NCBI GenBank assembly: GCA_002692465.1 | Contig: NZKH01000017.1 | Location: forward strand, 19,298 to 67,270 | Length of the DNA: 47,973 bases | Source of the DNA: Methanobacteriota archaeon | Lineage (GTDB): Archaea; Thermoplasmatota; Poseidoniia; Poseidoniales; Poseidoniaceae | Direction of reading: 5' to 3' | Notes under the pieces: generated by a model | What the model was told of the DNA's origin: nothing | Database searches by the model: none | Seen by the model: the letters and a program-made list of their open reading frames with translations, nothing else | In this document: positions 18,931 through 22,535 of the stretch, one piece after another | Numbering within the stretch: position 1 is the stretch's first letter | Layout: every line of letters starts with the position of its first letter | Program-made: the position numbers and the translations under genes

Positions 18931-19527
18931 TTATGTTTTACAATCTTCTTCTGTAAATTTTACACATTCAGAAGTGACTGTAATAATTGCAGCAAAATTG
19001 TCCTCAGCTTCTACAACTTCAAAGATATTGAATCCATAACCTCTTGCTTCAACTTCTAAGGTCCAAGTACCAGGAGTTAGTGGTGGTCTATGTACTTCAA
19101 CTACAGGCTCAATTGATTCACTTGCCAATTTTTCATAAAAAATTTCTCCATTTGGATTTTTTATCTTTACGTGTACATATCTTGCTTCTTGGCTAAGTGT
19201 TGAAACATTTATTCCAGTAGTATCATAAATCAATTCACGAACTTGTTGTGATAAATCAAGAGGATCTGGCATCGAAACTCGAACATAGATAATTAATTCA
19301 GATACGCTTTCTGTTACTTCAAATGTAGATGAGTTTTCATAAACTTCTGATTGGGCTGTTTGAAATGTATAACTAATATTTGTTTTTTCTTCAATATTTT
19401 CTACCGCCGGCGCCCCTCGCATTAATTCAAGAGATTCTCTTATGGGTACTAATCCAAAACAACCCATTGATGAAGTTACAATTAGCGAAGCAAAAATTAG
19501 TGTGAATATACTATTTGTACCCTTCAT
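18931..19527 (-). CDS. Secreted lipoprotein with Ig-like domain, function unknown
   Basis: The 198-residue protein starts at the ATG at 19527 (MKGTNSIF...). Its signal peptide ends in a lipobox, S20-M-G-C23, so it is probably lipid-anchored on the outer face. An in-frame ATG at 19545 would add MIWLCS and is less likely for a lipoprotein. The rest is a beta-rich domain ending with a predicted Ig-like strand pattern: PPLTPGTWTLEVEARGYGF and then DNFAAIITV. Two Cys, near the end (ECVKFTEEDC), could form a disulfide. I recognise no catalytic motif. Its stop is 9 nt from that of the convergent nuclease, and a candidate sRNA lies upstream in the same gap. Confidence 0.65.
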   Translation of the reverse strand: MKGTNSIFTLIFASLIVTSSMGCFGLVPIRESLELMRGAPAVENIEEKTNISYTFQTAQSEVYENSSTFEVTESVSELIIYVRVSMPDPLDLSQQVRELIYDTTGINVSTLSQEARYVHVKIKNPNGEIFYEKLASESIEPVVEVHRPPLTPGTWTLEVEARGYGFNIFEVVEAEDNFAAIITVTSECVKFTEEDCKT

Positions 19528-19580
19528 CGAACAAAGCCAAATCATTCATACGCTTGAAACCAACGCATAAAATTCAAGAT

Positions 19581-19622: not shown

Positions 19623-19690
19623 GCTCGAATGAAGCGAAGAGGGTCAGCCGAGCCTTTTGGTGATGACGAACCCTATGAGTGCTGACGAGC
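19623..19690 (+). ncRNA. Candidate C/D box sRNA (2'-O-methylation guide)
   Basis: The 68-nt stretch is GC-richer than its surroundings and has the full C/D layout. The terminal stem GCTCG (19623-19627) pairs with CGAGC (19686-19690). The C box is ATGAAGC (19629-19635), D' is CCGA (19648-19651), C' is a perfect GTGATGA (19660-19666) and D is CTGA (19682-19685). The stem, a 3-nt bulge AAT (19628-19630), then GA, against CTGA followed directly by the stem, make a canonical K-turn: G31-A85 and A32-G84 sheared pairs, then A33-U83 and G34-C82 (last two digits). Guides are 12 nt (19636-19647) and 15 nt (19667-19681). It lies in a gap between two minus-strand genes. Confidence 0.6.
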
Positions 19691-19691
19691 A

Positions 19692-22535
19692 CTATTCAAA
19701 TTTAGCACCACAAATTTGGCATTCTTTGGCATCAACTGGTATATCTGCACCACAACCACCACACTCTGCAGTTTCAGATTTTTCTTCTTCAACTTCTTCT
19801 TTGATGACTTCTTTATTGATTACATCTTCAGAATCATCGAATGTAAAGTCAGTATCCACTTTTGGTAATTGATTACCTACGAAATCAGCAGCCCCTTCTA
19901 GATGTTCTTTATTAGATCCTAGACCTATTTTTACTTCTTCACCTGGCATAACTCCTTCTTCACCTGTTAACGCATAAAGTTCTGCTCTCATATTTGCATC
20001 ACTAGCAGTAAGTTCAACATCCTCATCTTTGAGTGCTTTTAATTCTCCTTTTTCGGCTAAAATTTCATCCATGTTTTGGTTGTATTTTCCTCTTTGAGAA
20101 ATTAATTCGGAGTCTTCATCATCAATTTTCATTTTTACATCAGTATCTTCAACCTCTAGATTTATTTCTTCTTCTTCAATTTCTTCTGATTCTTGTTTCG
20201 AGCGGACCTGTTCTACTTCTGCTTCAGCTTCAGTGATGCGTTCATCCCAATCAGATTCTAATTCATCTTCATTAAAGCCCATTTCAGCAATGTCTGAGGC
20301 AAATTGGGTTGAACCTTTGATAATTTCATCAGTATCTTCATCTTCTAAACCAAACACATTTACAACGCCATAAAATTTTGAATTATATTTACATCCATAT
20401 TCAAATGAACCTATTTTGTCAAATTCATGTAGGAATTCATCATGATCATCTAAATCACCTGAATGGAATAATAATTGCCCTTCTTCATTTAGTGATTTTG
20501 CAGACACAGTATGTTTGTCATCTTCATCATAATTTGTCCACATAACTTTGTCTCCAATGGAAATGTTCAATTCTTCAGGGTCGTATCCATCATTTTCTAT
20601 ATCAACATAAATTACATTTGATAAATCAATTCTTTGTCTTGTTAGAACTATTCCAGCAATTAATGCAACTATGAGTAATATAGTGAATGGAATAAGTAAT
20701 TTCAAGAAATTTGTAGAGTCTTCACTATCAATATTTAGTAAAGAGTCTGGAGGATCAATTTCTAAGGTCATAGTATAATCTTGTCCATCTTCTTCTACAA
20801 AAATAAGTTTTAATTGGTATAATCCCGTATTATTTGGTGTAAAAGCACATTCAAACAAGTCCTGTTTATTTTGTTCTGAAAATGTTAAAACTTTACTATT
20901 AATTAATTCATCATCTTTATCTCTACATTCTAATGTTTGACTACCAGAATCAGTTGAGTTTACATTAATCATAAGATTATGCTCGACACCCATAATATAT
21001 GGTTGATTAGGAGTAATATTTACGCTATATAAATCAAAATTCAATAAAAATGGAATTTCAATTTCTACTGTAACTTGATCCGTATTATCTAAATTATCAG
21101 AGTCCATCCAATTAGTATCTGGTTGCCACATTACACTGAAATCTTGATTGCCCTTAGTAGAGCCAGTTTCTACTTCAATTTCTATTGTTTCAACGCTATT
21201 AGGGTTAATAATTAGTTCATAAGGCCCATAGGATGCACCTCTCCAATTTGCAGATAATGTTCCCGAGGAACTGACGTCACCAGTATTTTGTATATTTACA
21301 TAAAATGAAATATTAGTTTCTATGTTAACAACGTTGTTTGATGAATCTGAAATTATATTCACATTTACATTAGGAGAATTTGCTAATTGAAATGAAGAAC
21401 TTACAATATCATTAGAATTATCTCCATTATGTTGAGAGTTTGAATCAATAATGACTGAAACATCATGAGTTCCAGCCGAAAATCCACCAATATCATTTTT
21501 ATTAAATTCTAGCGTGAATATTTGTTGGTTTGAATCTGTATTCCATTCGATATTTTTGTTTAATGTGATTTCAGCATCATTGATTGAATCCAAAAGTCTA
21601 ATTTGAACATCAATGTTTGTACCTTGAATAATATTCTCGAACTCAGTAGCAAAAATTGAACCAGACAGAGTCCAAGGGCCATTCACAGAAGCTATGCCTC
21701 CATCAGATGTTGTTACTACAAGGTCTCCGACAAAATACATATCAGGAACATCTGTAACAATTAGATTCCCATTCCAATCATTATTTTGGTCATCTAATTC
21801 ATTAATTTCATAATTCGAATCAACAGAAATTTGTATTGCCCAATTCCCAGTTTGTGGTGCCGTCGATTCAAAAGAAATAGTTGTTGATACGCCAGCATCT
21901 AGGGATTGTATTACAGTAGTTTCACTAATTCCACTTCCTTCAATATTTAGACTAACTGAATTAGCTTCAGATGTTTCAGTTCCTTGATTTAAAATTGTTA
22001 CATTTGTGTAAAACAAGTCATTTTCATGAATGTCTGAATTTGGTGATATCTCTACATTTTCGATAACTAAATCTGGTAAACCTTGAACTGAAAATGATTT
22101 GAATACAGATGCCGAAAAAGAGTCAGAATCTGCATCATATACCCTTACAAATATTCCGCTGTCATCGATATTTACATTTTGCCAAATTACTGTAACATTT
22201 GTTTGAGAATCTGTAATTCCATCACTTGCTTCAAGTATCACATGTTCAATTTTCCATTCATTTCCAGCTTCATATGAATTTTTGTAATAATATACATCGA
22301 CTTCAGAAACTTCAGTATTACTATTGTTTAAAGTTAATTTAATAGAAATTGGAGATCCTGACACTGGATCTTCTGGAGATATTATTATTGATTCGTTTGA
22401 AAAACTAACTCCTCCAATGGTAGCAGCGTGGCTTGTTGAGATTACCGTTAAAAATAATGGGAAAATCATCAAAATTGTAATGATTGAACTAAACTTCTTT
22501 CGTCCCATAATACCCTTAGATGAAATGTTGCCCAT
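19692..22535 (-). CDS. Large membrane protein: CARDB-like repeats, degenerate cupredoxin, zinc ribbon
   Basis: The 947-residue protein starts with a signal peptide (cleavage after about A37, SHA). Residues of about 40-600 are beta-rich repeats of the CARDB/NEW3 type, with the typical N-x-G and LDDQNNDWNGN ends. One membrane segment follows at about 611-632. A cupredoxin-like domain at about 640-728 has one ligand pair, H675 (KHTV) and C715, but the usual second His (C-x2-H) is N718 and the Met position is F721, so a type 1 copper site looks lost. A long acidic helical linker follows, then a C-terminal zinc ribbon with C925-x2-C928 and C939-x2-C942. By simple topology the cupredoxin and ribbon would be cytoplasmic. 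An alternative start is M10. Confidence 0.7.
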   Translation of the reverse strand: MGNISSKGIMGRKKFSSIITILMIFPLFLTVISTSHAATIGGVSFSNESIIISPEDPVSGSPISIKLTLNNSNTEVSEVDVYYYKNSYEAGNEWKIEHVILEASDGITDSQTNVTVIWQNVNIDDSGIFVRVYDADSDSFSASVFKSFSVQGLPDLVIENVEISPNSDIHENDLFYTNVTILNQGTETSEANSVSLNIEGSGISETTVIQSLDAGVSTTISFESTAPQTGNWAIQISVDSNYEINELDDQNNDWNGNLIVTDVPDMYFVGDLVVTTSDGGIASVNGPWTLSGSIFATEFENIIQGTNIDVQIRLLDSINDAEITLNKNIEWNTDSNQQIFTLEFNKNDIGGFSAGTHDVSVIIDSNSQHNGDNSNDIVSSSFQLANSPNVNVNIISDSSNNVVNIETNISFYVNIQNTGDVSSSGTLSANWRGASYGPYELIINPNSVETIEIEVETGSTKGNQDFSVMWQPDTNWMDSDNLDNTDQVTVEIEIPFLLNFDLYSVNITPNQPYIMGVEHNLMINVNSTDSGSQTLECRDKDDELINSKVLTFSEQNKQDLFECAFTPNNTGLYQLKLIFVEEDGQDYTMTLEIDPPDSLLNIDSEDSTNFLKLLIPFTILLIVALIAGIVLTRQRIDLSNVIYVDIENDGYDPEELNISIGDKVMWTNYDEDDKHTVSAKSLNEEGQLLFHSGDLDDHDEFLHEFDKIGSFEYGCKYNSKFYGVVNVFGLEDEDTDEIIKGSTQFASDIAEMGFNEDELESDWDERITEAEAEVEQVRSKQESEEIEEEEINLEVEDTDVKMKIDDEDSELISQRGKYNQNMDEILAEKGELKALKDEDVELTASDANMRAELYALTGEEGVMPGEEVKIGLGSNKEHLEGAADFVGNQLPKVDTDFTFDDSEDVINKEVIKEEVEEEKSETAECGGCGADIPVDAKECQICGAKFE

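Follow-up and report, generated by a model that had tools for sequence, protein, structure and literature searches.

In Haloferax and Pyrococcus, the guide for Cm34 of pre-tRNA-Met is a free-standing C/D RNA, which forms part of its base pairs with the intron (PMC2584109). The haloarchaeal version of this guide was named sR-tMet (PMC4033218), and sR49 is the predicted tRNA-Met Cm34 guide of Pyrococcus (PMC2584109). Unspliced pre-tRNA-Trp is also methylated at its wobble base C34 by a C/D RNP, the guide of which (sR50 type) is carried by the intron of the very pre-tRNA that it targets. According to a recent review, archaeal guides evolve fast, and in Pyrobaculum, the second guide of tRNA-directed sRNAs usually lacks a target (PMC7994747). 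Among the rRNA sites, helix 69/71 of the 23S rRNA is an archaeal methylation hotspot (PMC4644070). In Bacteria, TlyA places a 2'-O-methyl group at C1920 of the 23S rRNA (PMC5778110, PMC12805891), and equivalents of this methylation exist in plastids and mitochondria (PMC8053127).

Here, we describe an element at positions 19623-19690 (plus strand) of the window, i.e. of the whole stretch of 47,973 nucleotides that was analysed. Its sequence marks it as the gene of a box C/D guide sRNA homologous to sR-tMet. We are highly confident that it encodes a double-guide sRNA from a member of the marine group II archaea (Ca. Poseidoniales), with C34 of tRNA-Met and C1920 of the 23S rRNA as predicted targets; transcription, assembly of the RNP and both methylations are what we infer from the conserved sequence. 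The predicted sRNA would assemble with L7Ae, Nop5 and fibrillarin. The same genome contains a fibrillarin gene (PF01269, at a contig edge) beside a gene for a Nop-domain protein (PF01798).

Architecture of the element and relation to known sRNAs

In plus-strand order, the element reads GCTCG AATGAAGC GAAGAGGGTCAG CCGA GCC TTTT GGT GATGACGA ACCCTATGAGTG CTGA CGAGC. The original prediction of a box C/D sRNA with a complete K-turn is borne out by the sequence: the arms GCTCG (19623-19627) and CGAGC (19686-19690) form a terminal stem of 5 bp, which is followed by the 3-nt NRU bulge AAU (19628-19630) and tandem GA, and box D (CUGA, 19682-19685) lies directly against the stem. Box C, AUGAAGC (19629-19635), has two departures from RUGAUGA; relatives from other genera contain AUGAUGA. 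The D' guide GAAGAGGGTCAG (19636-19647) precedes box D', which is CCGA (19648-19651), as had been read before, and CTGA in many relatives. The C'/D' kink-turn contains a capped internal stem GCC-UUUU-GGU (19652-19661), as indicated by the family alignment and pairing statistics. Box C', AUGACGA (19663-19669), and the D guide ACCCTATGAGTG (19670-19681) complete the RNA. With a GC content of 0.56, the element stands out from its upstream (0.21) and downstream (0.37) flanks, and the description as a GC-rich region in AT-rich surroundings is accurate. Both flanking ORFs (18931-19545 and 19692-22535) lie on the minus strand; the RNA itself is encoded on the plus strand, and the original reading is corrected in this respect.

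The register of box C' had to be corrected. It was initially assigned to GTGATGA, which is 3 nt too far upstream. The AUGACGA register is preferred because it leaves the capped stem, a GAU bulge and a GA against D', and because it makes both guides 12 nt long. Moreover, the second family of the order has UUGACGA or GUGACGA at this place and no GUGAUGA at all. The D' guide length of 12 nt is therefore retained, and the D guide is shortened from 15 to 12 nt.

Folding of the naked RNA yielded a z-score of -2.9. The terminal stem forms in this fold, and the two guides pair in part with each other (AGGGU with ACCCU), which the assembled RNP would need to open. This mutual complementarity of positions 19636-19647 and 19670-19681 recurs in the targets, which contain ACCCU (23S rRNA) and AGGGU (pre-tRNA-Met).

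An Rfam scan at gathering thresholds gave no match. A scan of the stretch by E-value yielded two archaeal C/D models, both with scores below gathering. sR-tMet (RF02163) matches over its full length (1-72) with 31.9 bits and an E-value of 1.2e-4, the gathering threshold being 50. sR41 (RF01126) matches the D-guide half with 30.1 bits and an E-value of 8.7e-6. The haloarchaeal sR-tMet is likewise a free-standing C/D sRNA with the D guide core CCCUAUGAGUG, the box C' GAUGACGA and an internal stem, and it targets C34 of elongator pre-tRNA-Met by pairing into the intron. In contrast, its D' guide in the Rfam alignment is a different one and lacks AAGAGGGUCA. The second half of the Thermococcales sR41, UGAUGA-GA-CCCUAUGAG-CUGA, is nearly identical to that of the element, whereas the first half with the D' guide is unmatched; only model positions 27-53 align. 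The Pyrococcus sR49, compared by its description, shares the predicted target and the free-standing gene. Taken by sequence, the element is a well-supported new member of the known sR-tMet family.

The D guide and elongator pre-tRNA-Met

The assembly that contains the element is 80% complete and lacks both a tRNA-Met gene and the part of the 23S gene with H69. Target sequences were therefore taken from relatives, which were two genomes of the same genus (G001, G004) for the tRNA and other genera for the 23S rRNA. In siblings and relatives, the elongator tRNA-Met gene has an intron after A37 that begins with GGG. The anticodon loop and the first intron bases of elongator pre-tRNA-Met(CAU) can form 10-11 bp with the D guide: guide positions 2-11 (CCCUAUGAGU) are complementary to A31-A37 plus three intron G (ACUCAUA followed by GGG), and complementarity may extend to the next base, GGG(U). 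According to the N+5 rule, C34 lies opposite the fifth base upstream of box D. In the proposed mechanism, the D guide would bind the unspliced pre-tRNA across the exon-intron junction and direct a 2'-O-methyl group to the wobble base C34. Because the pairing includes intron bases, this methylation would have to precede splicing.

Among the 47 genomes in which both guide and tRNA could be read, guide positions 4-11 pair in all 47 and positions 2-11 in 40. Variants with G instead of A at guide position 7 lie opposite U36 and retain a G-U pair. The 15-nt target string that had been derived for the longer guide was found only in the sRNA itself (13 genomes, one mismatch allowed), although both guides do match a tRNA or rRNA. 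This is due to the fact that only the first 10-11 nt pair and that the target crosses the exon-intron junction. A pattern search for CTCATA near a T-loop in intronless tRNAs found none, because the tRNA-Met gene has an intron. The sRNA gene itself is located outside this intron; it adjoins a protein gene, and tRNA-Met lies elsewhere in the siblings.

Two other candidate targets of the D guide were rejected. Both the 23S sequence CATAGGG (1781-1787, 7 bp) and TACTCGUAGG, which requires two G-U pairs, leave the invariant A4 and the CCC at guide positions 9-11 unexplained. The published modification table of the Thermoplasma acidophilum elongator tRNA-Met lists Cm32 and Cm56 and no Cm34 (PMC4307237). 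Methylation of C34 need therefore not hold throughout the phylum.

Introns were also seen in other tRNA genes. Two relatives have tRNA-Tyr(GUA) genes with introns of about 30 nt (L083, L087). Furthermore, the covariance model of the sRNA (see below) also matches a C/D RNA in the approximately 110-nt intron of pre-tRNA-Trp(CCA) at seven loci of Poseidoniaceae (L339-L345, in G007, G134, G012, G236, G228, G153 and G268). The D guide of this RNA complements the tRNA-Trp anticodon loop and covaries with it (CTCCAATTG/CAATTGGAG versus CTCCAGTTG/CAACTGGAG). We take this RNA to be the known intronic tRNA-Trp guide.

The D' guide and 23S rRNA

Positions 2-11 of the D' guide (AAGAGGGUCA) are the exact complement (10 bp) of the 23S sequence UGACCCUCUU in four genomes (G012, G014, G007, G030). 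By E. coli rrlB numbering, this sequence corresponds to U1917-U1926 in helix 69/71. The base five upstream of box D' faces C1920 (E. coli number). By pairing at the base of helix 69/71, the D' guide would direct a 2'-O-methyl group to this residue. Both of the "fifth C" targets named in the original prediction thus land on real bases, namely C34 of elongator tRNA-Met and C1920 of the 23S rRNA. In the literature searched, we found no archaeal guide that is tied to C1920. The predicted site is the same 23S base as that of bacterial TlyA, which is a protein-only enzyme in contrast to the RNA guide predicted here. As regards the genes of the target, a distance of about 0.5 Mb separates those for 16S and 23S rRNA in G014, which consists of a single contig, and they lie on opposite strands (L027/L031); the rRNA genes are hence unlinked in this genome.

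A match of the D' guide to H69 at a minimum of nine of the ten positions was seen in 25 of 59 guides. Several genera of Poseidoniaceae have lost it, which fits a guide of the sR-tMet type that serves C34 of tRNA-Met only, the 23S match being incidental or that of an rRNA folding chaperone that does not promote methylation. Second guides without a target are, after all, the usual case among the tRNA sRNAs of Pyrobaculum (PMC7994747). However, distant orders of the phylum share the D' guide AAGAGGGTCA together with the D guide beside it, and its fifth base always faces C1920. In addition, perfect 10-bp targets in rRNA or tRNA were rare for shuffled guides, at 0.6% of the trials for D and 0.4% for D'. 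A joint match of both guides is therefore unlikely to be due to chance, even before conservation is counted. We consider a guide for the tRNA alone improbable, and it is the alternative that fares best against a double guide for C34 and C1920.

Conservation of the sRNA and its gene neighbourhood

A DNA search detected the element in four of four genomes of the same genus and also in other genera of the family. Over the stretch, the same-genus copies are 85-97% identical, and the RNA core is nearly unchanged. Twenty copies were aligned to build a covariance model, and of the 293 genomes of the phylum that were sampled, 159 gave a match. By family, the matches amount to 41 of 43 (f1), 32 of 39 (f2) and 4 of 6 (f3), and within the order Poseidoniales to 73 of 82. 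No sRNA match was obtained in the sampled members of the genera g3 (G006, G016) and g15 (G025, G029, G195, G286). Possibly, these have lost the sRNA, and the tRNA-Met intron may or may not have gone with it.

The expectation that stem and boxes are conserved in relatives was confirmed by this distribution and by the covariation of the stem. In the 20 sequences of the family, the terminal stem is paired in 100% of the cases, with compensatory changes at three of the five pairs. Across the phylum (98 sequences), pairing was seen in 97.7% of the cells, compared to 70.4% after shuffling and 26-48% in slid controls, and double changes occur in nine of the ten pairs. The test with 20 sequences is the cleaner one, because the alignment of the 98 sequences was fitted to the structure.

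These data also bear on whether the gene is a degenerate C/D copy that is non-functional in its own genome. Such a state is suggested by box C (AUGAAGC) and box D' (CCGA), which are off consensus. Yet the same departures are common to many genera whose guides are otherwise conserved, and the core is preserved among the same-genus copies as stated above. We therefore regard degeneration as very improbable and retain a functional double guide as the preferred reading.

The convergent neighbour of the sRNA gene (19692-22535, minus strand) codes for a CARDB/cupredoxin-like protein of 947 residues, with matches to CARDB and weak matches to cupredoxin. At its C-terminus, it has a zinc-ribbon tail with two CxxC motifs (...CGxCGA...CxxCGAKFE) that is conserved in the family. 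A scan of viral contigs for this protein found none. The sRNA lies beside this gene in most of the family; it also occurs without it. Since the element begins 1-2 nt past the stop codon of this gene in a conserved neighbourhood, it might be taken for a hairpin 3' end or terminator that resembles a C/D RNA by chance, but this is hardly conceivable, given that the element also turns up in genomes in which this gene was not detected beside it (G005, G008, G017, and G030 and G037 of f2) and in other orders, that boxes and guides are conserved and not merely a plain hairpin, and that two guides reach C34 and C1920 with exact geometry.

Distribution of the double guide in Thermoplasmatota

The D' and D guides occur together in records of Poseidoniales, Methanomassiliicoccales, Aciduliprofundum/DHVE2, Proteinoplasmatales and Thermoplasmatales; several other families of this phylum have the pair as well. 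A scan of 84,980 species with the exact pattern yielded 94 stretches, 80 of which were retrieved. The sampled stretches that passed the covariance model carry labels of Thermoplasmatota or Euryarchaeota, with the exception of L308, which is labelled "archaeon" only, and L316. The latter contig bears a full double-guide sRNA and is labelled as a bacterium of the Terrabacteria group; it is probably a mislabelled, misplaced or misbinned archaeal contig. Two further pattern matches (L279, L287) with the labels Chloroflexi and Dehalococcoidia have no boxes and fail the covariance model; they were discarded as chance hits.

The simplest history that accounts for this distribution would be an ancestral double guide for tRNA and 23S rRNA, followed by later loss of the rRNA guide. 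We consider it rather probable, judging from the guides compared here, that the sRNA is ancestral to Thermoplasmatota and that a single RNP would tie the methylation of C34 in tRNA-Met prior to splicing to that of C1920 in the subunit-bridge helix 69 of the 23S rRNA, the base modified by TlyA in Bacteria, at the depth of the phylum. Specialists would hardly expect a conserved combination of a tRNA guide and a 23S guide in one RNA.

The element extends sR-tMet to Thermoplasmatota, with guides that match the tRNA intron in 47 genomes. For the uncultured marine group II archaea, it provides a concrete and checkable guide for RNA modification, with both predicted targets named. A double guide for tRNA and rRNA that is kept phylum-deep differs from the picture given in a recent review, according to which the partner of a tRNA guide is usually an orphan and guides evolve fast. 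If the prediction for C1920 is true, RNA-guided methylation in these Archaea would have converged on the site of bacterial TlyA.
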